From contig JADCJL010000157.1 in NCBI GenBank assembly GCA_020247055.1, forward strand, positions 1-33,062: a stretch of DNA of 33,062 nucleotides, in the 5' to 3' direction. Of the stretch, positions 4 to 24,912 are shown piece after piece (the stretch's first letter is position 1; each line of letters opens with the position of its first letter). Both the position numbers and the translations under genes were made by a program. The notes under the pieces were generated by a model. The model saw only the letters and a list, made by a program, of their open reading frames with translations. It ran no database searches and had not been told where the DNA came from. The stretch is from Acidobacteriaceae bacterium. Lineage in GTDB: Bacteria > Acidobacteriota > Terriglobia > Bryobacterales > Bryobacteraceae.

Positions 4-2886
4 GTGGACGACTCTTTTCGCACCGCGGTGCCGCCCAGTCCGGTCTACTGCCACCCGGACTTTCTTGAGAAGCTGGCGGCCTACGGCTCCCAGCCCATCA
101 GCAAGCGGGCATCCCTGCTTCTGCAGCGTCTGCTGATCGACCCCGAGCGGCTGCACTTCAAGGGCACGCAGGGGCAGAACAAGGGCTGGCGCCGCTCCCG
201 GCTGGGCGGCACGGGCGGATCGCACTTCTACGCCTGGTGGGCCCCGAACGGCGCCCTGCCGGTGAAGGGTTTCGAGGCGCCCAGCGGAGCCCTGTTCCTG
301 CGCGACATACGGCACCACGACGACCACTCGCCGCTCCCGGCCAATCAGTTTCCGGCCGACTATCTGCCCATCTCGGTGGCCGAGGTCCGGCAGGACGATT
401 ACGGCCCGGCGCCTTGGACGACGCAGCAAGCCAAGTTTGCCCGCGCCCGCGACTCGGTGCGCATTCTCAAGGGCCATCCAGGCTCGGGCAAGACGCGCGC
501 CCTGCTGCATGCCGCTGACCAGACGCGGACAAGTAACATCCTGTATCTGACCTACAGCGCCGACCTGGCCACGCTCGCCCGTTCCTACTTTGACCGCTAC
601 TGCTCCAACGCCCGCCGCTATCACGTCGCCACGTTCCCGGCGTTTCTGCGCGAGTTCCTGGGGATGTCAGCGCCGCCCGTTCCACTCTCCCAACAGCGTT
701 CGCGCTTCCGGGTGGAGACGACGTCTTTTTCGAACGCGCTCGGCCCGTGGGCGCGGGAGCACTCGGCACTGTTTGACGAGTTCCACGCGCACATTATCGG
801 CGGGGCGCTGCCGGTGCGCCTGGGCCGCTTTGCCGCCGCCCGGCAGCAGCGGCAGAACGATGCCGACTATGTCGAACGGCGCGCCGCCATCATTGGACGC
901 CGTGCCGCCGAAGCCGCCATCGCCGCGGCGGTGCGTCTTGAAAAAGCCGGCGGCCCGCTGGCGCCGCGCCTGTTCGCCGACCTCGATCTGGCCTGGCAGG
1001 CCATCGAACAGCTGCCGAAAAAGGACGTCCCCTGGGACTGCATCGCGATCGACGAATGCCAGGATCTGACGCCGATCGAGTGCCTGTTCATCGCGCGGCT
1101 GGCCAAGCGGCTGCAGCAGCTGCGGGGCCGCCCGGTGCCGGTGCTGATCGCCGGGGACGAGGCGCAAACCGTGCGCCCAACCGACTTTGAGTGGGCGTGG
1201 CTGAACGACATCTTCCATGCGGAGGTGGCAACCCCGAGCGTCCATCATCTGACGTCGAATCTCCGCAGTCCGCGGCAGATCGCCAACCTCATCAACGGCG
1301 TCTGGGATCTCTATGCGCACCTTGAGAAACGGGACCGACCGTCGGGCCAGGGCTGGGCGTCGATTGACGATGACGCCAACGATCAGATCCTCTACTGCAC
1401 GGCCTCACCGGGAGAGGACCTGAAGGCGCTGCTCGCCAATCTGGCGTCGCGCGAGGGGCTGGCCCTGGTGACCTTCAAGGAAGGCCAGACCCTGGCGCCC
1501 TCGGCGCTGACGACCGCGGAGATCAAGGGGCTCGACTTCCATTCGGTCTGCATCCTCAACCCGGGCGAACAGCTGCAGCGGATCGAGGAGGGCCGTTATC
1601 TTTCGGCCGTGGAGATTGACGGATTGACGCGCCGCCTGGCCATCGACCAGCTGCGGGTCGCGGTGAGCCGACCCACGGAACGTCTGATCTGGCTCGACGT
1701 GGGCGCGACGATCGACCAGTTGCACGGCTGTCTGCGTTTCCTGCAGCGGACGGCGCCGACGATTGCGGCACTGACTCCGGCCGCGCTGCTCAAGTCGCTC
1801 GAGGAGGAGAACCTCGATCTCGAAGAGCGCATTCAGCGGTGCCAGGAGGACGCGCGGCAGTATCTGGCGGTGCGGCCGGATCTGGCCTGGTCCCGCGCGC
1901 ACCAGGCGGTCTCGCTACTGGGCCGGCATGGCGACGTGCATGCGATCACGGACCCATTGACGCGGAAATCCGCCTATCTCTGTCTGGCCGAGGTCTGCTT
2001 TGCGCTCGCCATGCGGAAGGCGAAGCTGTCGGCGGAGCTTGGCGCTCCGGACCTGTTCGGCGAGGCCGCCCGGTCGGCGGGATTTTCGGCCAGCACGACG
2101 CTGACGTCGGTCCTCTATCACATCGCGATGCTCTTCAAGAGCACCGGGGTGGACGAGGCCAATGCGGCACTGGTGCTCGTCGAAGAGCTGCCGGCGGCGC
2201 TGCCGCAGCTGCCGCCGTGGGTGATGCTCGAATTGGGCCAGGAGCCGCTGCGCTGGATTGCGCTGCTCGAACGGGTAGACCAGACGGGGGTGAACACGGC
2301 CACCTGCGTCAAGGTGCTGCCGCCGTTCTACGAGGCGCTGCAGCTGCCCGACGCCGCGCAGCGGGCGAACCAGTTGCGCACGATGGTGGTGAACCGTCTC
2401 CTCAAAGCCCGGCGGCATACGGAGGCGCTGGCCGTGCTCGCGCTGCTGCCGGAGCGCGAGCCGCGCCTCGAGGCGCAGTGCCATCAGGCGCTCGAAAACT
2501 TTGCCGCCGCCGCGGCGGCGCACCAGGCGGCGGGCGATGTGCAGGCGGCTGTGGAGTGCTACCGGCGGGTCCCGGACATCGGCAACGCCCTCGCGGCGAT
2601 GAAGCAGATGAGCAAGCCGCACGCCGCGGCGCCGGCGCTCGAATGGGTCGCGGCGATGCAGGCGCTGGCGACGACGCGTCCGGAGAACTTCAACCGGGTG
2701 ATCAAGCCCGAGGAGAAAGCGCTTCTCCAGAACGTGCTCGAATCCGCGCTGGGGGTGCAGCGCAAGAAACCCGGGGCCAAGAAGGTAGCCGCGAAGAAGA
2801 CGGCGGCCAAGAAGGCAGCAGCCCCAAAGACAGCCGCCAAGAAGCAGGGTGCCCCCGCCAAACGCACCCGCAACGCTTACTTTTAA
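4..2886 (+). CDS. Large SF1 (UvrD/Rep-like) helicase with RelE/ParE-like N-terminus, TPR-like C-terminus and Lys/Ala-rich tail
   Basis: Seen: a 960-residue frame with the SF1 helicase motifs in order: Walker A GHPGSGKT (about 157-164), motif II IDECQD (349-354), motif III GDEAQT (384-389), NLRSPRQ near 419, motif V around EIKGLDF (505) and motif VI QLRVAVSRPTERL (550). It is therefore probably an ATP-driven nucleic acid helicase. Residues about 15-110 (dP-x-K pattern, GWRRSR, then FLRDIRHHDDHS) resemble the RelE/ParE toxin fold; this is inference from pattern only. Residues about 620-900 are helical and TPR-like. The last 40 residues are repeats of the AAKKTAAKK kind, as in histone H1-like proteins, and could bind DNA. 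No nuclease motif was recognised. The GTG at base 4 follows an open CTC codon, so the start may lie outside the window. Function (repair or defence) is undetermined. Confidence 0.85.
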   Translation: MDDSFRTAVPPSPVYCHPDFLEKLAAYGSQPISKRASLLLQRLLIDPERLHFKGTQGQNKGWRRSRLGGTGGSHFYAWWAPNGALPVKGFEAPSGALFLRDIRHHDDHSPLPANQFPADYLPISVAEVRQDDYGPAPWTTQQAKFARARDSVRILKGHPGSGKTRALLHAADQTRTSNILYLTYSADLATLARSYFDRYCSNARRYHVATFPAFLREFLGMSAPPVPLSQQRSRFRVETTSFSNALGPWAREHSALFDEFHAHIIGGALPVRLGRFAAARQQRQNDADYVERRAAIIGRRAAEAAIAAAVRLEKAGGPLAPRLFADLDLAWQAIEQLPKKDVPWDCIAIDECQDLTPIECLFIARLAKRLQQLRGRPVPVLIAGDEAQTVRPTDFEWAWLNDIFHAEVATPSVHHLTSNLRSPRQIANLINGVWDLYAHLEKRDRPSGQGWASIDDDANDQILYCTASPGEDLKALLANLASREGLALVTFKEGQTLAPSALTTAEIKGLDFHSVCILNPGEQLQRIEEGRYLSAVEIDGLTRRLAIDQLRVAVSRPTERLIWLDVGATIDQLHGCLRFLQRTAPTIAALTPAALLKSLEEENLDLEERIQRCQEDARQYLAVRPDLAWSRAHQAVSLLGRHGDVHAITDPLTRKSAYLCLAEVCFALAMRKAKLSAELGAPDLFGEAARSAGFSASTTLTSVLYHIAMLFKSTGVDEANAALVLVEELPAALPQLPPWVMLELGQEPLRWIALLERVDQTGVNTATCVKVLPPFYEALQLPDAAQRANQLRTMVVNRLLKARRHTEALAVLALLPEREPRLEAQCHQALENFAAAAAAHQAAGDVQAAVECYRRVPDIGNALAAMKQMSKPHAAAPALEWVAAMQALATTRPENFNRVIKPEEKALLQNVLESALGVQRKKPGAKKVAAKKTAAKKAAAPKTAAKKQGAPAKRTRNAYF

Positions 2887-3090
2887 GGAACGCGCACGAC
2901 GGACGCGCTTCGGCCCGGCAGGTGGGGCGAGTTCCTCGCCCGGTTCCTCGCCCCTTGGTGCCGGGCCGGCGCGGCCTGTGCGCTTTTTTGGAACCGCGCA
3001 CAACGGACTCACTTCGGCCCGCCAGGTGGGGCGAGTTCCTCGCCCGGTTCCTCGCCCGTTGGTGCCGGGCCGGCGCGGCCTAGGCGCTTC
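2887..3090 (-). repeat. Tandem palindromic repeat dimer, locus A
   Basis: Two 92-bp units (2892-2983 and 2996-3087), about 90% identical, are separated by a 12-nt linker (2984-2995, TTTTTTGGAACC). Each has outer arms GCGCAC/GTGCGC (decayed at the right end of unit 2). Inside is a 10-bp stem, CGGCCCGGCA (2911-2920) with TGCCGGGCCG (2959-2968); unit 2 carries one mismatch. The core is a hairpin GGGCGAG-TTC-CTCGCCC (2925-2941), with an alternative 8-bp pairing to CTCGCCCC (2947-2954). The same element lies in opposite written orientation at 9534-9707. Both loci sit between convergent genes. Relative to the copies at 9.5 kb, these units carry a 12-bp extra GGTTCCTCGCCC-type segment. Confidence 0.9.
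2892..2989 (+). terminator. Probable terminator of the helicase gene, formed by repeat unit A1 plus T6
   Basis: Five bases after the helicase stop, unit A1 can fold into a long GC-rich stem: outer GCGCAC/GTGCGC, a perfect 10-bp stem and an inner 7-bp hairpin. Six T residues (2984-2989) follow directly. This matches an intrinsic terminator on the + strand. Termination activity is inferred, not shown. Confidence 0.6.
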
Positions 3091-4286
3091 TGCGTGGCCG
3101 CCCCCGGCAGCGCCCGCGCGCTGCCGCGCAGCGCATAGCAGCCGGCGCCCGCGGCCACCACCAGGGCCGTCACCATGAAGGCAGCCGGCCAGCCTTTCTC
3201 CTTGACGAGGTAGCCGATGACCACGGGAGCCAGGATGCCCGAGAGATTGGCAAAGGTGTTCTGCGCCCCGGCCACGGCGCCGGCGTAGCGCGGCGTCAGG
3301 TCCAGCGATCCGCTCGAAAAGACCGGGGTGATGGCGCCGAGTAGCGTCATGCCGGCGCAGAGCAGCACGACGGCAACCAGGGCCGAGGGCGCCGCGGCGG
3401 CACCGAGCAGACAGAGCGCGGAGAGCGCGTAGGGGATCAGCAGCAACTTCGAAGTGCGGGAACGGTGGGCGCCGGCGCGGTCGAGCAGTTGGGCGAAGCC
3501 ATTGGCGCCGGCCCAGGCGCACAGAAACGGGATGGAGGAGCCGGCGGCCATTTCGGGCAGCGACAGCTGGCGCGCGGACGACAAATAGGTCGGCAGCCAG
3601 GTGACCATGAAGTAGAAGAACCAGTTGGCCGAAAAGTGCAGGGCGAATAGCGCCCAGAGCGCCGGGGCCCGCGCCAGCGTCTTCCACGGCACCGGTTCGC
3701 GCACCGCGGCGGAGAGTTCCGGCCCGTCTTCCAAGCGCAGCCAAAAGGGCAGCCACGGGAAGCCAAACAGGCCGAAGACCCAGAAGATCGCCTGCCAGCC
3801 GAACCCGTGCAGCAGCCAGGTGGCAGCGGGCACGGCCAGGACGGGTCCGGCGTAGCCGGCGCTCCAGCACAACGCCGTAGCGCGGGAGTATTCGCGGGGT
3901 GGAAACCAGCGCACGAGCGTGCCGTTGATGCAGGAGGCCGTGCCGCTCTCGCCCACCCCGAGCAGTACCCGCATGGCCGTCAGGCCGGCGAGCGAGCGCG
4001 GCAGCGGTGTGAGCAGCGTGCAGAGCGTCCACCAGCTCATGCAGGCGGCAAAGACCGGCCGGGTGCCGTAGCGCTGCGTCAGTAGGCCCACGGGCGCCAT
4101 CAGCAGGGTGTAGCCGAGGAAGAAGCCGGAGAGGACCCAGCCGGCCTGCGCCGTGTCCCACTGGTTCTCGCTCATCATGACCGGCATGGCGACCGAGAGA
4201 CTGACGCGGTCTGAGTGTGCGATGAGGTTGGCGAGGAAGCACAGCAGTGCGGCGTCCACGCGGCGGGGCCAGGGCAGGCGGCGCAT
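3009..4286 (-). CDS. MFS transporter, ACS (anion:cation symporter)-like
   Basis: A 425-residue, about 12-helix membrane protein. Its N-terminus (AHSDRVSLSVAMPVM) and the loop motif GLLTQRYGTRPVF fit the ACS branch of the major facilitator superfamily, which carries organic and sugar acids (family knowledge). It is the third gene of a minus-strand operon behind an enolase-superfamily dehydratase and an MlrC-like protein (9-bp gap), so it probably imports their substrate. Oddity: about the last 26 residues (GRAGPAPTGEEPGEELAPP and neighbours) are encoded by palindromic repeat unit A2, and the stop at 3009-3011 lies inside that repeat. The true family C-terminus probably ends near the codon pair ACG-CAG (about 3093), where the cytochrome gene at the related locus has a TAG stop. 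The substrate is unknown. Confidence 0.88.
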   Translation of the reverse strand: MRRLPWPRRVDAALLCFLANLIAHSDRVSLSVAMPVMMSENQWDTAQAGWVLSGFFLGYTLLMAPVGLLTQRYGTRPVFAACMSWWTLCTLLTPLPRSLAGLTAMRVLLGVGESGTASCINGTLVRWFPPREYSRATALCWSAGYAGPVLAVPAATWLLHGFGWQAIFWVFGLFGFPWLPFWLRLEDGPELSAAVREPVPWKTLARAPALWALFALHFSANWFFYFMVTWLPTYLSSARQLSLPEMAAGSSIPFLCAWAGANGFAQLLDRAGAHRSRTSKLLLIPYALSALCLLGAAAAPSALVAVVLLCAGMTLLGAITPVFSSGSLDLTPRYAGAVAGAQNTFANLSGILAPVVIGYLVKEKGWPAAFMVTALVVAAGAGCYALRGSARALPGAATQKRLGRAGPAPTGEEPGEELAPPGGPK

Positions 4287-4295
4287 TGGGTTCCT

Positions 4296-5798
4296 TTACC
4301 GGCCCCGGAGAAGGACGGGTTCGAGCCCGGGGATCTCCTCGTCGGCCGGAAAGTAGGGGCGCTCCAGGCGGGAGAACCGGACGTGACGGAGCGAGGCCGG
4401 GGTGGCGCCGGGGGTATCGAGAACATAGGCGGCCACAAAGCGGCCGGCGTAGCCGACGCGGTAGTTCATCGGGTTTTTGACGACGACGAAGCGCGCGGCG
4501 GCGGGGTCCATGCCGATGGCGCGAAACTGCTCGTCGGCCCAGTCATACGTGGCGAAGCTGGTGACGAGGATATCGACGTTGCCGGCGCGCAACCAGGCGG
4601 TGGGACCCATCTCGCCGGCCTGGCCCTCCCAGATGCCGCCGGAGTAGACGAAGCGGCCGTCGGTGAGCGCCTCGATGCGGGCGGTGAGCGGGAGCGGCTG
4701 GCCCCAGCGGGGGTCGATCTGATGGCCGAGGAGGAGCGAGACCGTATCGCCGGGCTGGTGGGTGTGGCACAAGGCGGCCGCCGCGGGGTCGACCACGGGC
4801 GCGAGGGAACGCACCGGCAGCTGGGCGGCGACGAGGGCGGCGAGGGCGTGGATGCTGTCGCCGCAGGCGCCGCCGCCGGCACAGTCTGCGGTTTCGAGCA
4901 GCAGAATGGTGCCTGGGGGCTGGCGGGCAGCATCGGCAATCGCCTCGGCCGGCGTCCAGATGCGGGGCTCGAGGGCGAAGCGGAGCCGCCAGTACATTTG
5001 GGCGATGCCGGTGGCGAGCGAGACGGCGAGCGCGGGGTCGCCGTCGGTGACGACGAGGCCGCCACCGCCCATGCCGGGGAGATCGAGATGGGGCTGGACG
5101 AGGAAGGCGCTGGTTGAGAGCACGCCGGGCTGCTGCTCGAGCGACTTGGTGTAGCGCATGACTTCGGCAAAGGGGCCATCGTCGGTGCTGCCCATGAAGC
5201 CGCCGACGATGACGGGCACTTTGGCCATGGCCATGGCCGGACGGATGAGACCTTCCACACAGTCGGCAAGAAGGCGGGCGCCGCGCTCGCCGGTGGTGAA
5301 GGTGTCGCGGTGCGGATAGGTTTCCCACGCGAGCAGGGCGTTGGCATTAGCGACCATGCCGGCAGTCACGTGGGCGTGGCAATCGAGCGTGGCGACCAGC
5401 GGCACGTCCGGGCCGACGAGGGCGCGAACCGCGGTGATCAGATCTTCATCGAGGCTGCCCAGGCCATCGACGGCGGCGGCGCCGTGCAGCGGCATCAACA
5501 CGCCGTCAACGGGGAGCGCGGCGCGGAGCCGGGCGAGGAGATCGTCCCGGAGCACACGGTAGCAATCGGCGGTGAGTGGGCCGCCGGGGCAGGCGCTGGC
5601 GAATAGGAGAGGGACGATCTCGACGTTGCGGCCGCGCAGATGCGCGAGTGCACCGCCGAGGACGCCGCCGGTGGCGGCCAGCAGCTCTTCGCCGCGGCGG
5701 AGTTCGGTGCGGGTGAACGAGTCGAGCGGAGTCAGCGTGCCGCACAGGTGATTGGATTCGGTAAAGATGGCGCCGATGGCGATGCGGTGGGGGGGCAT
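4296..5798 (-). CDS. MlrC-like M81-family metallopeptidase
   Basis: A 500-residue protein of the MlrC (microcystinase C, peptidase family M81) type, which hydrolyses peptide or amide bonds in small modified substrates using a zinc ion. The N-terminal domain opens with IAIGAIFTESNHLC and carries LDCHAHV (D139, H141, H143) and AWETYPHRD (H163), at the positions of the usual LDLHAN and TYPH metal-site motifs. The C-terminal MlrC domain contains the glycine-rich LPGMGGGG and later YSGGIWEGQAG. Start: ATG at 5798, only 4 bases after the stop of the upstream dehydratase gene. Length is normal for the family. Many environmental MlrC homologues lie beside transporters and catabolic enzymes rather than microcystin genes, so a general amidase or lactonase-like role on the operon's substrate is likelier than toxin degradation. 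That last point is inference. Confidence 0.87.
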   Translation of the reverse strand: MPPHRIAIGAIFTESNHLCGTLTPLDSFTRTELRRGEELLAATGGVLGGALAHLRGRNVEIVPLLFASACPGGPLTADCYRVLRDDLLARLRAALPVDGVLMPLHGAAAVDGLGSLDEDLITAVRALVGPDVPLVATLDCHAHVTAGMVANANALLAWETYPHRDTFTTGERGARLLADCVEGLIRPAMAMAKVPVIVGGFMGSTDDGPFAEVMRYTKSLEQQPGVLSTSAFLVQPHLDLPGMGGGGLVVTDGDPALAVSLATGIAQMYWRLRFALEPRIWTPAEAIADAARQPPGTILLLETADCAGGGACGDSIHALAALVAAQLPVRSLAPVVDPAAAALCHTHQPGDTVSLLLGHQIDPRWGQPLPLTARIEALTDGRFVYSGGIWEGQAGEMGPTAWLRAGNVDILVTSFATYDWADEQFRAIGMDPAAARFVVVKNPMNYRVGYAGRFVAAYVLDTPGATPASLRHVRFSRLERPYFPADEEIPGLEPVLLRGR

Positions 5799-5802
5799 GG
5801 GT

Positions 5803-6993
5803 TCAGGCCTCGTAGGGGGGCGCGGGGGCGTAGAATTGGGGGCCGAAGACCATGTCGGAGTAGTTGCCTTCGGGAATCGAGGCGCCCGGGGGCAGACTAT
5901 ATCGTTCTACCGTGTCTTCGTCGAGGGTGATGCCGAGGCCGGGCAGTTGCGGCAAGGCGAGTTCGCCGTCGTGCAGCTGCCACGGGGTGCTGAGCAGGTT
6001 TTCGATGAGCGAGTTACCGGTCTGATCCATTTCGACGGTGAGGCCGTGGTCGAGCGAGGCGAGCACGTGCATGTTGGCGGTGAGGGCGACGGCGTCGCTC
6101 CAGGTGTGGGGCGCCACGCGGAGGCCCTGCGCCGCGGCGTGCCGGGCTATCCGCAGACTCTCGGTGATGCCGCCGCAGCGGCAGGCGTCGGGCTGGACTA
6201 TGTCGACAACGCGGCCATCGATCAGTTCGGCGAAGCCCTGCCGGCCGAACTCGTTTTCGCCGGCGGCGAGGGGGATGCCAGCGAGGTGAGGGCGGAGTTC
6301 GTCGAAGAGTTGCGGCGTTTCGGGCAGAAACGGTTCTTCGAGCCAGAAGATGTTCGCTTCGCGGAAGGCGGGCGCCAGGCGTTGGGCCTGGGCGAGCGGG
6401 TAGCGGGCGTTGCCTTCGATCATCAGGCGGGGTGCGGCGCCGATGGTCTCGCGCACCTGGCGGAGGGCGGCCAGATCGTAATCGTAGTGGCGGCCGAGAC
6501 GCATCTTCATGGCGCGGAAGCCGCGGTCGAGGTGGCGGCCGGCTTCCTCACAGAGTGCAGCGGCGTCCCGTTTCCAGAGCAGGGCGCTGGCATAGACCGG
6601 GACGGTGTGGCGGCGGGCGCCGAGGAGATGATAGAGGGGCAGGCCGGCGGCCTTGCCGCGCAGGTCCCAAAGCGCCATGTCGATGCCGCCGAGCGCGGAG
6701 ACCGCGGCGCCCTTCCGGCCATACCAGCGCGTGACCGAGTAACTGCGCTCCCAAAGCGCTTCCACGTCCGCGGCGTCCTCGCCGATGAGCAACGGGCGGA
6801 GCTGGTTTTCAATGATGGTGCGGACGAGGTCGGGATGCGAGTAGACCGAGCCGAGGCCGACGTGATCGGTGTCGGTTAAGACGCGAACGAGCGTGGAGAC
6901 GCGGGCCGTGCAGTAGCCGCCGGCGTAGTGAAAGCCTTCGCCGGGCGCATAGGCAAAGCGCAGCGTGGTGGTTTGGATATCGCGGATGCGCAC
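5803..6993 (-). CDS. Enolase-superfamily dehydratase/racemase (mandelate racemase subgroup)
   Basis: A 396-residue member of the mandelate racemase/muconate lactonizing group, which abstracts the proton alpha to a carboxylate. Visible catalytic elements: a KxR pair in MKMRLG (K163, R165), metal-ligand candidates in MIEGNARY (E193), WLEEPF (E219/E220) and AGENEF (E246), Asp in VQPDACRCGG and the base His in APHTWSD (H296). The His-Asp dyad is typical of acid-sugar dehydratases such as galactonate dehydratase. The KxR, where racemases have KxK, also favours dehydration over racemisation. First gene of the operon with MlrC-like and MFS genes. The substrate, probably a sugar acid or hydroxy acid, cannot be read from sequence. 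The promoter must lie in 6994-7067, shared divergently with a pseudogene. Confidence 0.87.
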   Translation of the reverse strand: MRIRDIQTTTLRFAYAPGEGFHYAGGYCTARVSTLVRVLTDTDHVGLGSVYSHPDLVRTIIENQLRPLLIGEDAADVEALWERSYSVTRWYGRKGAAVSALGGIDMALWDLRGKAAGLPLYHLLGARRHTVPVYASALLWKRDAAALCEEAGRHLDRGFRAMKMRLGRHYDYDLAALRQVRETIGAAPRLMIEGNARYPLAQAQRLAPAFREANIFWLEEPFLPETPQLFDELRPHLAGIPLAAGENEFGRQGFAELIDGRVVDIVQPDACRCGGITESLRIARHAAAQGLRVAPHTWSDAVALTANMHVLASLDHGLTVEMDQTGNSLIENLLSTPWQLHDGELALPQLPGLGITLDEDTVERYSLPPGASIPEGNYSDMVFGPQFYAPAPPYEA

Positions 6994-7067
6994 GAAGAGA
7001 TCTTATTCTATCTGTCCGGACTGAGTTGGAGGCCGGGGCGGGATTGGCTTCGTTTTGTTATTCTCGA

Positions 7068-8119
7068 ATGCTTATGACGGCGCTGTTTGGACGCGGCTTG
7101 CTTTGGGCCGCGCCGCTTGCCCGCGGGCAAGCGATCGGCGAGGCGATCCGGATTGAAGGACACGTGGCGGTGCCGTTGCGGGACGGGGTGCAGCGCGATG
7201 GCATGCACGAGGCGGTGATGGGTTTCGCGCAGGATGGCTACGACACCATCGAGTGAGCGGCGCGGCAGACGTGGGCCAAGGGCAAGGTGGGGATGCACGG
7301 CGGGGCGTTCAAGCTGGCGTTCGCCTTTGGATGGGGCTCGGTGCGGATGCCAATCCGCATCATGAATCCGCAGCGTTGCCAGCTACTGGCGCGCCATCCG
7401 CGACGAGGAGCGGCTCGGGGCCGTGCGCGTCCCCTCCTACAGCCTGGGCGGCTGGTACGATCTGCGGCTGGGTGGGGCGATTAACAGCGATACGGGGGTG
7501 CGGGCGAAGGGCGCGACCGCGGCGGCGGGAGGCGATGCGGACGCTGTGTGATCGGGAGCTGCGCTGGAACAACCACTATCGGAAAGGAGAGGACAACGGA
7601 ATTGACCAGGAACCGCCTGTCGAGCTGTTCGTCATGGGGGTCAACCGCTGGTTCTCGTTTACCGACTGGCCGGTGCCCGGCGCGCGGGGATGGGCAGCGG
7701 CGTTCGGCGGCGCCCGCGGAGGCGGGGCAGGATGGTTATCATTACGACCCGCGCAATCCGGCGCCGACTTTGGGCGGCAACGGGCCGGTATACGGACTTC
7801 GTGGCCAAGCTCGTGGACGTGCATCCGGACGGCACGGCGATCAACGTGGCCGAAGGGATTCTGCGGGCGCGGTTCCACCGGGGTCTCGACAAAATGGAGC
7901 TGCTCGAGGCGAACCGGCGCTACGAGTTTACGATCGATAGGCGCGGCACGGCAAACGTGTTTCTGCCCGGTCACCGCACTCGCATCGTTCAATCTGGAGA
8001 CGGGCGAAGATCTCGGCGCGTGCGACCAGTTGCGGACGGCGCGGCAGACGGTCTTCGACGGCGGCGAGGCGCGGTGGCACCTCCTGCTGCCGCTGGTAAG
8101 TCTGGATAATAGTCGGTGA
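7068..8119 (+). pseudogene. Decayed CocE/NonD-family (S15-like) alpha/beta hydrolase
   Basis: Fragments of one family appear in order but in all three + frames. In one frame a short signal-like start (ATG 7068) is followed by HVAVPLRDGVQ and DGYDTIE, then TGA (7254-7256) where the family has Trp, then AARQTWAKGKVGMHGGAFK. In the next frame SYWRAIRDEERL and VPSYSLGGWYD (7381-7480). In the third DRELRWNNHYRKGEDNG and VELFVMGVNRWF (7550-7670). Then YHYDPRNPAPTLGG, then TDFVAKLVDVHPDGTA to LPGHRTRI (7796-7990), and finally FNLETGEDLG to LLLPLVS. The nucleophile Ser of the GGSYGG motif is Ala here. About 350 codons remain of roughly 600, so internal deletions removed much of the core and the region expected to hold the catalytic His. 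Intact relatives cleave esters or Xaa-Pro peptides. Confidence 0.85.
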
Positions 8120-9531
8120 TGTGGATTGCTCTGTTAGCCGCTGCGACCTGTCTTCCCTGCCATGAGGAGTTCGTGCGGTCTTACGCCAGGACCGGGATGG
8201 GACGGTCGATCACCCGGCCGACAGCCGAGCTGCAACTACGGCAGGAGGGGGCGCACGGGTCGGCGCGGTGGGTGGCGGCGTGGACAGGCAAGCAGATCGC
8301 GCACGCCGTCAACGATGAAGTGCGGACGATGGATTGGGCGGTGGGGTCGGGGCGGGCGGGCAAGAGCTTTCTGTTCCGGTTGGGCGATGCGCTGTTTCAG
8401 TCGCCGCTTTCCTGGTACGCCAACCGGCGGGCGTGGGACCTGTCGCCGGGCTTTCAGCGGGACCGCCGGCTGAGTTTTCTGCGGCCGGTGACGGCGGATT
8501 GCCTGAGCTGCCACGCGGGCGAATCGACGCCCATCGCCGGGACGCAGAACCGCTACGGAGAGAACCCGCTGCCGGCGCCTGGCATCACCTGCGAACGCTG
8601 CCACGGCGATGGCCGGGCGCACGCGCAGAATCCGCTGCGGGCCAACATTGTGAACCCGCGGCGCTTGGCGGCAGTAGAACGCGATAGCGTCTGCGAGCAG
8701 TGCCATCTGGGGGGCACGGCCCGGGTGCTGAATCCGGGCAAGCGTTGGAGTGACTTCCGGCCGGGCATGGCGCTCGAAACAGTTTTCTCCGTTTACGTGC
8801 CGCGGCTTCCCGCCGATCCGAACCGGATCAAGGTCGTGTCTCATTCCGAGCAGTTGGCGCTTTCGCGCTGCAAAATCGCCTCCGGCGACCGGCTCTGGTG
8901 CGCCACCTGCCACGATCCGCACCAGGAGCCCGAGAATGCCTTCGCCGCGCAGCAGGCCCACTGTCAGAGCTGCCACCAGAACACCAAGCCGCACGGAGAG
9001 GCTTGCACGACCTGCCACATGCCCCGCACGGAATCCTCCGACGGCGGCCACACCGCTTTTACCGACCATCGCATCCGGCGGCCGGGCGCGCCGAAGGTGC
9101 TACTGGAGCGCCCCGACGAGCTGCGGCCATGGCGTCCTCTGCCCGATGCCGCGCAGCGGGCGCGGGGCCTGGGGTTGGCCTATGCGGGCGCGGGACGCCT
9201 GGAGAAGGCCTACGAACTCCTGCGCTCGCTGCAGAGTCCCGATGCCGCGGTGCAGGATGCGCTTGGGCTGATCTATTTGCGGGCCAACCGGCCGGTGGCG
9301 TCCGTAGCAGCCTTCGTCGCGGCCGTACAGGCGGACCCTCAGAACTCCGTTCGGAGGTTGAACCTTGCGGCGGCGTACCTCGGCGCCGGCGAGCCAGCCA
9401 AGGCGCGGGCCGAGGCGTTGGAGGCCATCGCTCTTGAACCGCTGCTCGAAGATGCCTACGCGCTGCTGGCCGAGATCGAGCCCCGGCGCGCCGAGTTCTG
9501 GCGAGCCGAGTTCAACAAGCGATTGCGTTAG
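8119..9531 (+). CDS. Heptaheme c-type cytochrome with C-terminal TPRs
   Basis: Seven CxxCH haem-binding motifs are visible at residues about 11, 128, 158, 192, 261, 282 and 296 (CLPCH, CLSCH, CERCH, CEQCH, CATCH, CQSCH, CTTCH). After residue about 345 come two to three TPR-like helical pairs. The first 10 residues (MWIALLAAAT) are a minimal hydrophobic leader right before the first haem, so export with periplasmic haem attachment is expected. The leader is unusually short, so the true N-terminus could have been lost. The ATG at 8119 overlaps the TGA of the pseudogene's last frame (TGATG), which suggests an old translational coupling; GTG at 8116 is an alternative start. Multihaem-TPR proteins of this type are frequent in Acidobacteriota. 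Electron donor and acceptor are unknown. Confidence 0.88.
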   Translation: MWIALLAAATCLPCHEEFVRSYARTGMGRSITRPTAELQLRQEGAHGSARWVAAWTGKQIAHAVNDEVRTMDWAVGSGRAGKSFLFRLGDALFQSPLSWYANRRAWDLSPGFQRDRRLSFLRPVTADCLSCHAGESTPIAGTQNRYGENPLPAPGITCERCHGDGRAHAQNPLRANIVNPRRLAAVERDSVCEQCHLGGTARVLNPGKRWSDFRPGMALETVFSVYVPRLPADPNRIKVVSHSEQLALSRCKIASGDRLWCATCHDPHQEPENAFAAQQAHCQSCHQNTKPHGEACTTCHMPRTESSDGGHTAFTDHRIRRPGAPKVLLERPDELRPWRPLPDAAQRARGLGLAYAGAGRLEKAYELLRSLQSPDAAVQDALGLIYLRANRPVASVAAFVAAVQADPQNSVRRLNLAAAYLGAGEPAKARAEALEAIALEPLLEDAYALLAEIEPRRAEFWRAEFNKRLR

Positions 9532-9712
9532 AAGCGCACAGGCCGCAGAGGCACGGCACCAACTGGCGAGGAACTCGCCCGTCCTGCCGGGCCGAAGCGA
9601 CGCCGTTGTGCGCGTGTTCCATAAGAGCGCACAGGCCGCACAGGCACGGCACCAACGGGCGAGAAAATCGCCCATCCTGCCGGGCCGATGCGAGCCCGTT
9701 GTGCGCGACCCC
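9532..9712 (+). repeat. Tandem palindromic repeat dimer, locus B
   Basis: Two 81-bp units (9534-9614 and 9627-9707) with a 12-nt linker (9615-9626). They are the reverse-complement form of the units at 2892-3087. The linker read on the minus strand is TCTTATGGAACA, against TTTTTTGGAACC at locus A. Ends are GCGCACA/TGTGCGC. Unit 2 also has CAACGGGC (9653-9660) paired with GCCCGTTG (9694-9701). The core hairpin is kept although its sequence changed: GGCGAG-GAA-CTCGCC in unit 1 and GGGCGA-GAAAA-TCGCCC in unit 2. The array fills exactly the space between the stop codons of the cytochrome gene and the convergent receptor gene. A bidirectional terminator or mRNA 3'-end role is inferred. Confidence 0.88.
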
Positions 9713-12700
9713 TCAGAAGCGCAGAGAAACGCTGAATTGCACCACCCGCCGACCGGACTGCGTGCCGGTGATGCGGCCGAAGTTCACGCTGTCGATGAGC
9801 TGATCACCGAAGAAGAAGCTCGGAGTATTGGTCGAGTTCAGCGCTTCCATGCGGAGAGTGAGCATCAACCGTTCCGTGATCTTAGTCTGCTTCTCGCCCG
9901 AGAAGTCCAGGTTGATGAAGCGGGGGCCGTAGAGCAGCCGCCGCTGCAGCGAACCTAGCGTGCCCTGGTTGGGATGGAAGAACACCTGCCCGTTGAACGG
10001 CGCCCGGCCATCGGCCGCCGAGCCGCGCCCGTCGGGGCCAACGACATCGGACTTCAGGAAAAAGACGCCATTGCCGACTTTCCGGATGCCGGTCAAGTCA
10101 ACCAGTTGGTCGTAGTTCAACGTCGTGTTCACCGTGTTGACGCCGGAGCGGGCCGCCCGGTTCAGGGTGCCGCGGCTGGAGTAGATGCCGAACGGGGAGC
10201 CGGAGGTGAGCGTGAAGATCCCGCTGACGTTCCAGCCGCCGAACATCTGGTTCAGCACGCCATTGCGCAGATCCCAGCGGCGGCCGCGACCGAAGGGCAG
10301 TTCGTAGACGCCGTTGGCTTTGAGCGCGTGGCGCTGGTCAAAGGGCGAAGGCGCTTTCTCGATGCTGGGATTCGTCAGGTCGAGAAACGGTTCAAACCGC
10401 GCCTGGGCGTCGCCAAGCGTGTCGCTGAGGCTCTTCGAGAACACGTAATTGACCTGGAACTCGAAGCCCTTCGCGTAACGGCGGCGGTAGTCCAACTGGA
10501 GCGAATGATAGGTAGCATTCGAGTAGTTGGTCATCATGTTGGTGCCGAGCGCGTTGGGATTGCGGTAGAAGTTCACGGATCCGTTGAGCCGGTTGACCTG
10601 GTAGGTGTTGGCCAGCTCGCCCACCTGGCCGGAGTCGATCAGGCCGCGAATGGTCGTATTGGACAACAAGCCACCATTGGGCAAAGCATCAAAAAACGGG
10701 GTCCGCTGGCTGCCGGGCAGGTTCGGATTAAAGGCGGGGTTGAAGGTCCCGGTGGCATTCCGGGAGAGGTTACCGTTCGACCGGGCGCGGTTGAAGTCCT
10801 CGAGCAGACCATTGTTGATGATGACCTGATTGAAGTCGAAGGCGCGGAACTGCTTGGTCGCCTTGTTGCCGATGTAGGAGACCTGAAGGACCCCGTTGGC
10901 GATTTCGCGTTGAATGCTCAGGTTCCACTGCTGCACGTAGGGCGTGACGAGTTCCGGATTTGGCATGCCGAAGGCGGTCTGCGAATTGACGGCGTAGTTC
11001 TGAGCAAAGGTGCGGGGCGCGGTAAAGGCCGGGGTGGCGAGAGCGGGCAGAGTGGAGCTGATCGCCTGCGTCAGGTTGATCCGATTGGCGCTGGTAGAAA
11101 GTCCTTCACTGGTGGAGACGTTGTTATCGATCGACCGGATGAACTCATCGTTGGGGAAGTTGACGCTGTAGCCGGCGCGGACCACCGTCTTCTTTCCAAA
11201 CGGGCGCCACGCGATACCGACGTTGGGGCCGAAGTTATTGAGGTCGCGCTTATAGTAAGGCCGCCCGGCTGCTTTACCGGCGAAGTCTACCGCACCGGTG
11301 GGATCGAGCAGCGTCTGTTCGGCGTTGTTGTTCTTGAGGACCGGCACAAAGGTGAGGCTGTTCAACTCGGTCACAGGCGTGTAGTATTCCCAGCGGGTCC
11401 CGATGTGAATCGTCAGCCGGTCGTTGACGCGCCAGTTGTCGTTGAAGTAGAAGGCATGGTTATCGAGGCGCCAGTTCCGAATGTTGGGAGCACCGGGCAC
11501 AAAGCCGCTCGAGCGGTCCGTCACGTTGAACGTTTGCGACACGGAGGCGAGGATACCCGCGTGCAACATCAAAACGCTGGTGCCGATCCCAAGGTCAGTC
11601 ACCCGGAGATTAGGGACGAGCGCATTGACGTCGAGTGGATTCGCCGCGCTCAGACCGATTCCGTAGGTCGGCAGGTTCCCGGCTTCGTTGAAGGATTTCA
11701 CGTTGATGCGCTGGCCCTGGTAGCCGAATTGGAACGTGTGCCGATTTTTGACCCACGTGGCGTTATCCTGCCAGTTAAAGGTATCGGTATAACGGCCCTG
11801 GGCCCGGAAGGTGTTCACGGGATTGGAAACCAGGGGCAGCGCGAAGATCTGATTGCCGAAATTTTCACTCGAGGCAAACACGGCGGGAGCAATGTTCATG
11901 CCGCCACGAGCTTCGTTGGTGAAGGTCGGCGAGGCGGTCCAGCGCCAGGTGGTGGAGAGCAGGGGCGTCGAGTTGTCGTTCTGCACTTTGGGAACGGTGG
12001 AGTAGTCGTTGGCGAGGTCCGGCCGATCAACGATATCCCGGTTCCAGATGTAGCTGGCGCTGAATCCGTGCTGGGAGTTGAGCACGTAGTCGAGTTTGAA
12101 GGTCGCGTTGTCGCGCGTCCGGTTGTTGCGCACGTTGAACTGGTAGCCGCCGATGTTCAGGTGCCGACCGGCCGCGGCATTGAAATCACCCACGTCGCGA
12201 CGGTTGATGTTGCTGGCGGCCGGAACGCGATCGATCAGAGCCTTGGTCGTGGGATTGGCGGGCAGACCGGAAGCGCGGAGCATATCCACCTGCCGGATGT
12301 TGTTCGCCGTATCGAGATAGGTAAAGATACCCTGTCGGGCGGATTCCGTCAGGATCACCCGTGTTCCCGGGGTCTGCTGCCGCAGCCGCAACGCTTCGTA
12401 GTTGGTATAGAAAAAGAGCTTGTCCTTCTTGATCGGGCCGCCGAGGCTGCCGCCGAGCTGATTCTGATTGAGGAAGGGGCGCGGGGTGCCGTTGGCGTTC
12501 GAGAACCACGGGTTGGCCGCAAACTCATTGTTGCGGTTAAACCAGAAGAGGTTGCCTTTGTACTTGTTGGTGCCGGAGGGCGTGGTGAAAGTGACCTGCG
12601 CGGCGCCGTTGCCGAGGGCCGGATTCGCGTTGGAAGTGCTGAGCGTCACCTCGGCCACCTGATCGAGCAGGAGCAGATTGGGCAGGAAGTCCAGGCCGTT

Positions 12701-13282
12701 CGACCGGATAAAATTATCCTGGATGTTGATGCCGTCGAGCGTTACGTTGGCGTAGGAGACGCGCAATCCGTTGATGGTCGTATTGGCGCGGCCGTTGGAG
12801 CCAAAGCCGGCTTGCGTGGCGAGGAGCGCGAGCGGACTGCGGTTGGCGGTGGGCAGGCGAGAGAGCTGGTTGGAGGTGATTACCGAAGTGATCTCGGCGT
12901 TCGCCGTCTGCAGGACGACCGATTCGGCCTGCACTTCCACCACCGCCGAGACGGTGGCGAGCTCCAGTTTGACCGGCTGCACCGGGGTTTCCAGACCCGC
13001 CCCGACGCGGATGCCGCGGATGACGGCCTTGCTGAAGCCGGAGGCCTCCACCGACAGGTCGTATTCGCCGGCGCGCAGACCCGCGAGCGCATAGGTACCG
13101 GCAGCGGTTGTCTTGGTCGAATACTGCGCCTTGCTCGAGCCCGGCAAGCTCAGCGCGATCGTGGCATCAGCCACCGATGTTCCGGACGGATCATTGACGG
13201 TGCCCGAAACACGGCCAAGATTTTGCGCAAAGGAAGCTGCGGCTGCGCACGCGAACAGAACGATTAATTTGTAAAACAACAT
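9713..13282 (-). CDS. TonB-dependent receptor, Oar-like, with carboxypeptidase-regulatory-like domain
   Basis: A 1189-residue outer-membrane protein. The signal peptide is about residues 1-19 (LIVLFACAAAASFA). A beta-sandwich carboxypeptidase-regulatory-like domain follows at about 22-105 (GRVSGTVNDPSGTSVADATI, then LRAGEYDLSVEASGF). The plug region lies at about 115-240 (ITSNQLSRLPTANRSPLALL, VTLDGINIQDN), then a long beta-barrel ending in VQFSVSLRF with the terminal Phe typical of barrel proteins. Acidobacteriota encode very many of these receptors, thought to import large substrates such as oligosaccharides. No classic TonB box was recognised. ATG at 13282 is preceded by GGGGG with close spacing. 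The gene lies 28 bp downstream of the phosphoketolase gene on the same strand and ends against the palindromic repeat dimer. Confidence 0.93.
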   Translation of the reverse strand: MLFYKLIVLFACAAAASFAQNLGRVSGTVNDPSGTSVADATIALSLPGSSKAQYSTKTTAAGTYALAGLRAGEYDLSVEASGFSKAVIRGIRVGAGLETPVQPVKLELATVSAVVEVQAESVVLQTANAEITSVITSNQLSRLPTANRSPLALLATQAGFGSNGRANTTINGLRVSYANVTLDGINIQDNFIRSNGLDFLPNLLLLDQVAEVTLSTSNANPALGNGAAQVTFTTPSGTNKYKGNLFWFNRNNEFAANPWFSNANGTPRPFLNQNQLGGSLGGPIKKDKLFFYTNYEALRLRQQTPGTRVILTESARQGIFTYLDTANNIRQVDMLRASGLPANPTTKALIDRVPAASNINRRDVGDFNAAAGRHLNIGGYQFNVRNNRTRDNATFKLDYVLNSQHGFSASYIWNRDIVDRPDLANDYSTVPKVQNDNSTPLLSTTWRWTASPTFTNEARGGMNIAPAVFASSENFGNQIFALPLVSNPVNTFRAQGRYTDTFNWQDNATWVKNRHTFQFGYQGQRINVKSFNEAGNLPTYGIGLSAANPLDVNALVPNLRVTDLGIGTSVLMLHAGILASVSQTFNVTDRSSGFVPGAPNIRNWRLDNHAFYFNDNWRVNDRLTIHIGTRWEYYTPVTELNSLTFVPVLKNNNAEQTLLDPTGAVDFAGKAAGRPYYKRDLNNFGPNVGIAWRPFGKKTVVRAGYSVNFPNDEFIRSIDNNVSTSEGLSTSANRINLTQAISSTLPALATPAFTAPRTFAQNYAVNSQTAFGMPNPELVTPYVQQWNLSIQREIANGVLQVSYIGNKATKQFRAFDFNQVIINNGLLEDFNRARSNGNLSRNATGTFNPAFNPNLPGSQRTPFFDALPNGGLLSNTTIRGLIDSGQVGELANTYQVNRLNGSVNFYRNPNALGTNMMTNYSNATYHSLQLDYRRRYAKGFEFQVNYVFSKSLSDTLGDAQARFEPFLDLTNPSIEKAPSPFDQRHALKANGVYELPFGRGRRWDLRNGVLNQMFGGWNVSGIFTLTSGSPFGIYSSRGTLNRAARSGVNTVNTTLNYDQLVDLTGIRKVGNGVFFLKSDVVGPDGRGSAADGRAPFNGQVFFHPNQGTLGSLQRRLLYGPRFINLDFSGEKQTKITERLMLTLRMEALNSTNTPSFFFGDQLIDSVNFGRITGTQSGRRVVQFSVSLRF

Positions 13283-23889: not shown

Positions 23890-24912
23890 ATGATCACCCT
23901 CACCCCCCCCTCTCCAACCGCCCCCTCCCTCAGCGCCTCGCGCGCCGACGCGCTGATTGCGGCTTACCGTTCCCTGACGGAATATCTGATCGAGGAAGTC
24001 TTCGGCCATCCGATCGCTAAACCTGATAACCCGACTGGCGCAGAACGACAAGCGAACGCGGCGTCTCCCGCGCACGGCAGCGCGACGCAAATCGATCTGC
24101 TCAAGCTCAAGATTCACACCCGCCTCATGGCCATCACGCGCCATTCCACTCCCGAAGAGATTCTTTCGGCCTCCAGCACAATTCAGGAATCATTCGCCGA
24201 ACTCTCGGCCGTCTGGGGCCTGCTCGACGCTTCCGTCCACCAGAACATCGAGTCCGTGAACCACTCGCGGCAGGCCGCCCCGCCAACCGCCGCCCCGGCC
24301 GCGACACCTGCGGCCGCCGCAGCGCCGCCCCCCAGCCCGGAGCCGCCCATCAAACCAGCGCCGACACCCGATCCAGCGCCAGCACCCAAACCAGCGCCGG
24401 CACCCGATCCAGCGCCAGCACCCGATCCAGTGCCGGCACCCAAACCAGCGCCGCCGCCCAATCCTGACGATTCCCTTAAGCTCCAGCCGCGCGCCCTCTT
24501 CCCGTTCGCCCTCAACGAAGCCCGCACTTGCCCGGGATCCTATCTCGCCGTTCTCCCCATCGAGCGTTTCGCCATCTACCAATCCCGCTTCGGCGCCAAG
24601 GTCTGTGAGGAAATCTTTCACTTTTTCGTCCTTTACCTCACGCGCCGTCTGCGCCCCACCGACCAAATCTTCCACTGGGCTCCCGGCGTAGTCCTCGCCA
24701 TCATCCAGCGTCCGATCACCCTCGACTCGGTCCGCGCCGAGTTTGTCCGCTTCGGCCTCAACAAGATCGAACAGAGCGTCCCGCTAGGGGAAGGACGCTT
24801 CTTTAACCTCGTCATGGCCTCCAACTTTGCCGTTCTCGGCGTCGAGAAGACCGCCACCAACGACCAAATCGTCCAGAAGATTGAAAACCTTCTCAAAATC
24901 AGCGCCGCCTAG
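23890..24912 (+). CDS. Degenerate GGDEF-like protein with proline-rich linker
   Basis: A 340-residue protein in three parts. Residues about 15-125 are helical (ALIAAYRSLTEYLIEEVFG, TPEEILSASSTIQESFAELS). Residues about 127-192 form a Pro/Ala linker built partly from six PAPxPx units. Residues about 200-340 resemble a GGDEF (diguanylate cyclase) fold: LAVLPIERFAIYQSRFGAKV looks like the D-x-D-x-F-K region, and LRPTDQIFHWAPGVVLAIIQ occupies the place of R-x-GGDEF-x-x-L. The signature is APGVV (264-268), and the metal-binding acids are missing, so it cannot be an ordinary cyclase. An effector-binding or scaffold role is inferred. Start: ATG 23890 was preferred over TTG 23860, whose added residues are Cys/Trp-rich and unlike coding sequence. 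A PilZ gene follows 37 bp downstream. Confidence 0.65.
   Translation: MITLTPPSPTAPSLSASRADALIAAYRSLTEYLIEEVFGHPIAKPDNPTGAERQANAASPAHGSATQIDLLKLKIHTRLMAITRHSTPEEILSASSTIQESFAELSAVWGLLDASVHQNIESVNHSRQAAPPTAAPAATPAAAAAPPPSPEPPIKPAPTPDPAPAPKPAPAPDPAPAPDPVPAPKPAPPPNPDDSLKLQPRALFPFALNEARTCPGSYLAVLPIERFAIYQSRFGAKVCEEIFHFFVLYLTRRLRPTDQIFHWAPGVVLAIIQRPITLDSVRAEFVRFGLNKIEQSVPLGEGRFFNLVMASNFAVLGVEKTATNDQIVQKIENLLKISAA
24355..24462 (+). repeat. Six 18-bp tandem repeats in the linker of the GGDEF-like gene
   Basis: Six copies of CCAGCGCC(G/A)GCACCC(G/A)A(T/A)-type units. Each encodes six residues: PAPTPD, PAPAPK, PAPAPD, PAPAPD, PVPAPK, PAPPPN. Asp and Lys vary at the sixth position. The array should form a stiff extended linker and could change length by slippage. 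Confidence 0.85.

Follow-up and report, generated by a model that had tools for sequence, protein, structure and literature searches.

Two tandem pairs of palindromic units were present in the window, the 33,062-nt stretch of Bryobacteraceae DNA analyzed here, at 2891-3089 on the forward strand (locus 1) and at 9707-9532 on the reverse strand (locus 2). The linkers between the paired units were TTTTTTGGAAC and TCTTATGGAACA. The features at the two loci were as follows.

4 to 2886, + strand: gene directly upstream of locus 1; ends Tyr-Phe-stop; Pfam gave weak helicase/AAA matches only
2881 to 2890, + strand: locus 1 left junction, TTTT plus AAGGAA; contains the TAA stop (2884-2886) of the upstream gene
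2891 to 2985, + strand: locus 1 unit 1, a long hairpin unit that contains an additional inner repeat of 12 nt
2986 to 2994, + strand: locus 1 linker, TTTTGGAAC; T-run 3' of the hairpin
2995 to 3089, + strand: locus 1 unit 2, outer stem altered: CTAGGCGC
3088 to 3091, + strand: locus 1 right junction, TTCT
9713 to 13282, - strand: gene directly upstream of locus 2, encoding an outer-membrane beta-barrel protein; ends Phe-stop
9713 to 9718, - strand: locus 2 left junction, TTCTGA (TCAGAA on the + strand); contains the TGA stop of gene 9713-13282
9625 to 9707, - strand: locus 2 first unit (canonical strand -)
9615 to 9624, - strand: locus 2 linker, TTATGGAACA
9532 to 9614, - strand: locus 2 second unit
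9530 to 9533, - strand: locus 2 right junction, TTCT (AGAA on the + strand); overlaps the TAG stop (9529-9531) of the convergent gene 8116-9531

An earlier note on this DNA had placed both copies between genes; this was correct for locus 2, but at locus 1 the convergent MFS ORF (3009-4286) extended approximately 80 nt into unit 2. The tandem palindromic units that it claimed at both loci were confirmed, and chance was set aside by 64 BLAST matches and 114 long-unit hits in a profile search of the source genome (the Bryobacteraceae assembly carrying the window), where at least 66 arrays were found. The long unit was an 83-bp hairpin with a period of about 93 bp; a short form, consisting of the outer hairpin only, had 72 matches in the same genome. 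Arrays ranged from 1 to 4 or more units, and neighbouring units in the unit table of this genome always lay on the same strand, inverse-orientation pairs being absent. Unit boundaries were sharp, and the consensus of the flanks was yTTYTGAGGAAY (left) and TTCTGA (right). An exact TTYTRA was found at 27 of the 55 resolved left ends, compared with 0.56% of random 16-mers, and 28 of the 55 were without it. Most arrays (59/66) fell outside called ORFs and seven fell within them; 25 of the 66 had a contig end no more than 150 nt away. Eighty-eight full-length units were listed and 84 aligned (omitted were L068:5185-5263, L071:7473-7555, L084:3896-3971 and L105, truncated by the end of its contig). 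No Rfam 15 covariance model matched the window at gathering thresholds or positions 2850-3130 at E values up to 1, and phage and plasmid records gave no match.

Each element carried the tag (R)AGGAAC on its 5' side, formed an imperfect hairpin whose outer arms were GCGCACA/TGTGCGC, and had GCGC-TTCT as its 3' end; an invariant AC remained unpaired in the 5' strand of the outer stem. Three of the four window units folded better than shuffled sequences (z = -5.3, -5.7 and -2.5). Locus 1 unit 2, with its altered outer 3' arm, folded no better than shuffles (z = -0.1). RNAalifold gave a poor 17-pair consensus on the source-genome alignment, and base pairs were therefore named from single-sequence folds. 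Covariation within this genome was modest (8/28 pairs, 13/2308 cells). Between genera the ends were nearly invariant and the middle stem varied with compensation. Thus, the compensatory change proposed earlier was upheld for the middle stem across genera but not for the inner arms quoted in its support, GGCGAG/CTCGCC and GGGCGA/TCGCCC, which the alignment resolved as one stem, GGGCGAG/CTCGCCC, in two registers. Pairing between the loop (GTTYCTC) and the linker (GAGGAAC) had a length of 5.44, compared with 4.08 for scrambled linkers; loops and linkers re-paired between loci gave 5.28 (maximum 5.56), and because the pairing was not locus-specific it is offered as a lead only.

Integron attC sites have a GTT core at their junctions, conserved ends, a structure-conserved middle and unpaired bases. 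The last three features and the head-to-tail arrays would also fit attC-like recombination sites without gene cassettes; however, no gene lay between units within arrays of the source genome and the junctions were TTYT instead of a GTT core, so that this reading appears highly improbable.

Array size and presence varied among congeners at the same genes. In the congener G016 the orthologue of locus 1 carried a single unit without the 12-nt inner insertion common to both window units, and the orthologue of locus 2 was empty in G016 and held at least three units, spanning two contig ends, in G015. The dimer had been thought to be the inherited unit; single-unit, multi-unit and empty orthologues ruled this out, since arrays hold 1 to 4 or more units and the G016 orthologues one or none. 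Arrays evidently also grow by local duplication, because units were more alike within an array (91.2%) than between arrays (86.3%) and the locus 1 units share their insertion.

Sixteen loci were compared with congeners and junctions were read at nine of them; L069 was dropped as too diverged, leaving eight plus window locus 2, and the other seven, classed as occupied, one-sided or unclear, stood outside the junction reading. Divergence prevented a reading of L099 in G016 and of L119 in G006. Nine loci occupied in the source genome had an empty orthologous site in one or more congeners, and L100 was empty in all six congeners searched. The insertion point was TTCT at six of the nine empty sites; those of L070 (GTTT) and L102 (TACT) deviated from TTYT, and the left site of L099 was TTCC. 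Taken together, the empty sites suggest that TTYT, in most cases TTCT, is where insertion takes place.

Sequences resembling TTCTRA flanked many copies on both sides, as would be seen if the palindrome, with its complementary outer arms, were what remains of the inverted repeats of a DDE transposon since lost, a MITE duplicating about 6 bp of its target (TTCTRA). However, the two sides often differed after TTYT. At all five informative loci (window locus 2, L061, L100, L099 and L070), the left TTYT-like site was followed by two bases other than those of the target, and the pair after the right site equalled the target's at four (the exception was L100). No autonomous copy with a gene between its ends was found at 13 further left-end places in the source genome, which comprised 10 short forms, one long form, one intermediate and one without a right end. 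Longer flanking duplications, for which a TTYT rule does not account, were seen at L066 (16 bp) and L102 (about 15 bp). Longer direct repeats were not general in the flanks, those of at least 8 nt occurring in 7 of 37 arrays (shuffled mean 2.4, maximum 7). We consider a MITE origin unlikely.

By the approximate neighbour counts of a home-made gene caller, 15 arrays directly followed a gene; 13 of these 15 genes ended in Phe, compared with 27 of 280 called genes overall (array-adjacent ones included), and nine of the 15 encoded outer-membrane beta-barrels. TTC-T(GA) reads as a codon for Phe followed by a stop. Placement between convergent genes, noted earlier for the two window loci, was enriched (11 of the 31 arrays for which both neighbours were called, compared with 33 of 219 array-free gene pairs) but was not the rule. 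The hairpin started 4-6 nt past the stop in 14 of the 66 arrays, and TTTT lay within 8 nt of the hairpin at 31 of 52 internal unit ends. These positions, together with the compensation that keeps the stem across genera, would suit an element with a function at 3' ends, whether as terminator, as mRNA stabiliser or as ribosome-stalling hairpin, that selection has spread and maintained at gene ends. Against it, TTTT was present at only 8 of 43 terminal unit ends, the upstream neighbour was on the opposite strand in 21 of the 45 arrays with one called, some arrays lay inside called ORFs, presence at the same genes differed between congeners, and the stop-codon position would follow from target choice. 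Such a selected role appears quite unlikely as the explanation of the family. T-runs followed the hairpin in one orientation only, and the bidirectional terminator suggested earlier was not indicated; one-way termination or protection of mRNA 3' ends by the units is possible.

No Y1 transposase (RAYT) was matched in the source genome. Y1 was found in 13 of the 19 genomes searched, including the unit-rich G015, G016, G006 and G013, and also in G003 and G014, in which no units were found, and G018, which had one partial BLAST match. Y1 and the units were not correlated, because Y1 occurs in unit-rich and unit-free genomes alike and is absent from the source genome. No units were found at E values up to 1 around 20 of the 52 listed Y1 matches of relatives. 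RAYT/Y1 was not supported as the mobilising enzyme, given its absence from the source genome and the lack of linkage to units at these 20 loci of relatives. IS91-type Y2 was found in 3 of 13 genomes (G003, G014 and G018).

Dispersal in many copies, the nine presence/absence loci, the conserved ends and a middle stem kept in pairing were demonstrated at the level of sequence. We lean, with slightly more confidence than doubt, toward the units being non-autonomous, REP-like mobile hairpins that insert on the 3' side of TTYT and may do so in single-stranded form. In such movement, a putative HUH-type or similar enzyme would cleave the folded single strand of the element on the 3' side of TTCT at each end and join it on the 3' side of a TTYT target. 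Because its own 3' end is TTCT, the element itself could act as the next target, which with local tandem duplication would yield head-to-tail arrays. Insertion at TTC-T would keep both the protein and its stop codon, since TTC-T is the last codon plus the first stop base of Phe-ending genes and the element supplies its own GA or AA. Genes for outer-membrane beta-barrels would be frequent hosts because the target coincides with their terminal Phe and stop, and any effect on host mRNA would be secondary. Points against this reading are the Y1 results, the longer duplications at L066 and L102, the deviating sites of L070, L102 and L099, the left ends that lack an exact TTYTRA, the signs of local duplication within arrays, and the upstream neighbours on the opposite strand. 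The elements have spread in the genomes of one bacterial family, often at gene ends, with the genes apparently unbroken. More doubtful, although conceivable, is the full proposal of a new family of single-strand hairpin elements in which a putative unrecognised enzyme uses a TTC-T target that is the C-terminal Phe plus stop of outer-membrane proteins, the stop is rebuilt, and the element's own 3' end serves as the next target, giving tandem arrays without gene breakage.

If true, the range of REP-type mobile hairpins would come to include Bryobacteraceae, in which the tag, the target and the logic of the arrays are different. Repeats at stop codons would have a plain sequence reason, a target choice matching C-terminal Phe, rather than regulation. 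The family may be a source of variable markers, because presence and copy number differ between congeners; its arrays break assemblies, as the proportion near contig ends suggests. Fixed outer ends with a middle stem held by pairing may offer a clean case for what a mobilising enzyme reads.

ERIC, RUP and Correia-type MITEs are dispersed palindromic non-coding repeats of 100-150 bp. The units are likewise dispersed, palindromic and putatively non-coding, but differ in their head-to-tail arrays, TTYT target and lack of a clear fixed-length target duplication. MIRU of mycobacteria occur as tandem copies, and here too tandem copies at gene edges varied in number between relatives. MIRU are described as short mobile repeats that enter gene edges and affect the gene little; they lie at start codons and contain an ORF that is coupled to the gene (PMC12548453). 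Unlike these start-codon MIRU, the units form a strong palindrome after Phe-stop codons. IS200/IS605 elements insert 3' of a tetranucleotide without target duplication. Hairpin ends, a short fixed cleavage sequence and a single-strand mechanism are attributed to them (PMC8266576). By contrast, the units have one central hairpin, and their own genome is without a Y1 enzyme. REP/BIME are small non-coding hairpins in many copies, with a 5' tag, a conserved bulge and tandem clusters, and REP ends often give flanking ORFs their stop codons (PMC3733652, PMC8266576). The units differ in their tag, which is (R)AGGAAC and not GTAG or CGTC, in the 83-bp length of the long form, in arrays that run head-to-tail at fixed periods instead of BIME inverted pairs, and from REPtrons in that no RAYT occurs in their own genome or beside units at the loci read. 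They share with REP/BIME the short imperfect palindrome and the many, mostly intergenic copies, and the REP likeness drawn in the earlier note holds in kind: many copies, hairpins and a position at gene ends.

The window holds two loci of hairpin repeats, each with two long units, and one tandem repeat of another kind:

2891-3089, + strand: locus 1, two units
9707-9532, - strand: locus 2, two units
24320-24463: 18-bp tandem repeat, six overlapping copies listed

The repeat pairs reported in the earlier note were a sound observation and belong to a large family. A profile seeded with the four window units, then refined by iteration on the window and 60 fetched stretches, gave 114 matches, some partial, in 66 arrays in the same assembly (6.56 Mb, 358 contigs, 97.7% complete; the window is contig C65); both counts are lower bounds because the stretches were picked through BLAST and pattern matches. 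The long unit is 83 bp and the linker about 10 nt, giving a period of about 93 bp. Arrays had 1 to 4 or more units, and their lengths are underestimated because a contig end lay within 150 nt of 25 of the 66. A short form, consisting of the outer hairpin only, had a tandem spacing of 42-45 bp and gave 72 matches in a pattern search with up to three mismatches, versus 0 for the reversed pattern; some short copies were solitary or grouped with short copies only. In the aligned flanks, conservation ended past yTTYTGAGGAAY on the left (5' tag) side (54 arrays) and past TTCTGA on the right (46 arrays). An exact TTYTRA was found at 27 of 55 resolved left ends, compared with 0.56% of random 16-mers from the same DNA. 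In stretch L270, a different palindrome lay directly 3' of the unit at 1035-1117 (-) and shared its flanks, being preceded by TTTAGGAACT and followed by CTTCTGA, which suggests that further hairpin families may share these ends. In L174 (G015:C133, 1-180), the contig end reads as a folded-back unit, which may be a head-to-head pair or an artefact of assembly.

Orthologous sites in congeners were located with window DNA and the joined flanks of 16 arrays, then fetched and read; a pattern scan named 'Bryobacteraceae bacterium CoA2 C42' and 'Acidobacteria bacterium LacPavin_0818_WC50_MAG_64_13' as close congeners. Window locus 2 was empty in congener G016 and occupied in G015. Locus 1 had two units in the window versus one in G016, and both window units had a 12-nt insertion that was absent in G016, showing that this dimer arose locally; with the range of array sizes, this contradicts the proposal that the dimer is the inherited unit. 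None of the six congeners searched had the L100 array. L113 had two units in its own genome and, from gap lengths, about three in G015 and G016, and was empty in G009, G001 and G017. L119 had one unit, with about three in G015 and none in G016 and G017; at L066, G016 carried the element and four other congeners had an empty site. Readable empty sites at nine loci had the junction TTCT in six, the others being GTTT (L070), TACT (L102) and TTTT (L066).

On the left, the target TTYT was followed by two bases, usually GA or AA, and these by GGAAC; on the right, GCGC-TTCT led into the continuation of the target. Target and left junction differed at five loci (window locus 2, L061, L100, L099 and L070), and the left side was not discriminating at L113 and L119. 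The two bases past the left site differed from those of the target at all five informative loci, and the two past the right site were those of the target at four (exception L100). By analogy with the single-strand insertion of IS200/IS605 and REP, these junctions fit an element that would insert 3' of a TTYT-type tetranucleotide and has that tetranucleotide at its 3' end as well; head-to-tail arrays would follow, because that end matches the target. Such single-strand logic is described for IS200/IS605 and REP in PMC8266576. Counting against a pure tetranucleotide version, the L066 copy at 4002-4084 had 16 bp of the target directly repeated on its two sides (compared with L191 of G016 and L188 of G015), L102 had a flanking duplication of approximately 15 bp, and the left site of L099 was TTCC. 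Flanking repeats of 8 nt or more were present in 7 of 37 arrays (shuffled mean 2.4, maximum 7). Unit identity was 91.2% inside arrays versus 86.3% between them, indicating that local duplication adds units.

No Y1 transposases were found in the own genome. Among 19 genomes searched they occurred in 13, some of them unit-rich and two, G003 and G014, with no unit match; no unit was seen in the DNA read on either side of 20 of the 52 Y1 matches listed. Y2 transposases occurred in 3 of 13 genomes (G003, G014 and G018), and BLAST gave one partial unit match in G018. The mover may have been lost, be missing from the assembly or belong to another family. G018 had nine equally scoring Y1_Tnp fragments of 105 bases, several beginning at contig base 10; its assembly seems to be broken by a high-copy IS200-like element.

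Hairpin pairing was kept in 94.1% of cells in the own genome, with two-sided changes at 8 of 28 pairs and in 13 of 2308 cells (shuffle averages, 3.2 pairs and 6.6 cells). The earlier argument from compensation in the inner arms did not hold. Three of the four window units folded much better than shuffles, the exception being unit 2 of locus 1. Divergent members, read in 20 stretches from 6 genomes of 5 other genera, conserved CGCGCACAACGGACTCGC and GCGGCCTGTGCGC nearly letter for letter; the middle varied yet paired, with two-sided changes at 10 of 13 middle-stem pairs. Their whole structure had 59 two-sided cells versus 23.9 in shuffles; none of 500 shuffles reached 59 and a slid-partner control gave at most 43, the independent events being fewer than 59 because shuffles ignore relatedness and many cells are common to related sequences. 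The inner arm was kept less well (72% of cells), and single divergent sequences folded unevenly (z -1.4 to -5.0, five tested). The loop GTTYCTC (unit positions 40-47) was conserved where the inner stem was not, e.g., in L258-L277. The linker GAGGAAC is its complement, and the two showed no covariation from locus to locus.

For 15 of the 66 arrays, the first unit lay no more than 12 nt from the end of a same-strand gene, and for 14 of these the distance was 4-6 nt. C-terminal Phe, which is favoured by outer-membrane barrels, ended 13 of the 15 proteins directly upstream, versus 27 of 280 called genes overall (the 13 included). All 15 were scanned and nine were outer-membrane beta-barrels (eight OMP_b-brl_4, one Omp85). 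TTCT is part of both TTC-TGA and TTC-TAA, and with the GA or AA that the element supplies, reading frame and stop codon are preserved on insertion. The MFS transporter ORF at 3009-4286 is stop-free up to the repeat and extends about 80 nt into unit 2 of locus 1 (3009-3089, -), so that the repeat supplies the coding sequence for its C terminus. Both neighbours were called for 31 arrays and only one for 28; the other 7 of 66 lay inside called ORFs. The placement between convergent genes was borne out as an enrichment (11 of 31 arrays versus 33 of 219 array-free pairs), not as a rule: 13 of the 31 were co-directional and 7 divergent. For the 45 arrays outside ORFs with a called upstream neighbour, that gene was co-oriented with the array in 24 and on the opposite strand in 21, showing no overall orientation rule.

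A BLAST search with locus 2 matched 15 of the 19 genus genomes, counting the own one, and none of 22 from outside the genus. Within the order, a covariance model matched 49 of 257 genomes, every listed match in the same family; within the class it matched 27 of 399, 26 of them in that family. The remaining genome, of another family, had one match (G276:C71:3323-3405), either horizontal transfer or contamination. Tandem copies at 93-bp spacing were also found in other genera, e.g., in G055, G181 and G140. Phage and plasmid records gave no match to the unit, and no Rfam family matched. No such repeats from Acidobacteria or Bryobacteraceae were found in PubMed Central, which leaves most subscription journals outside and does not establish absence from print.

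In canonical orientation, TTTT followed within 8 nt of the unit at 31 of 52 internal ends and only 8 of 43 terminal ends, making one-way termination inside arrays possible; the suggested bidirectional terminator was not indicated. By analogy with ideas from REP work, the units might protect mRNA ends or act on terminating ribosomes. We file the family as a non-autonomous mobile hairpin repeat. The REP-like reading was right in kind, but the tag and inverted pairing of REP were looked for and not found in the units, nor was its enzyme found in the own genome.
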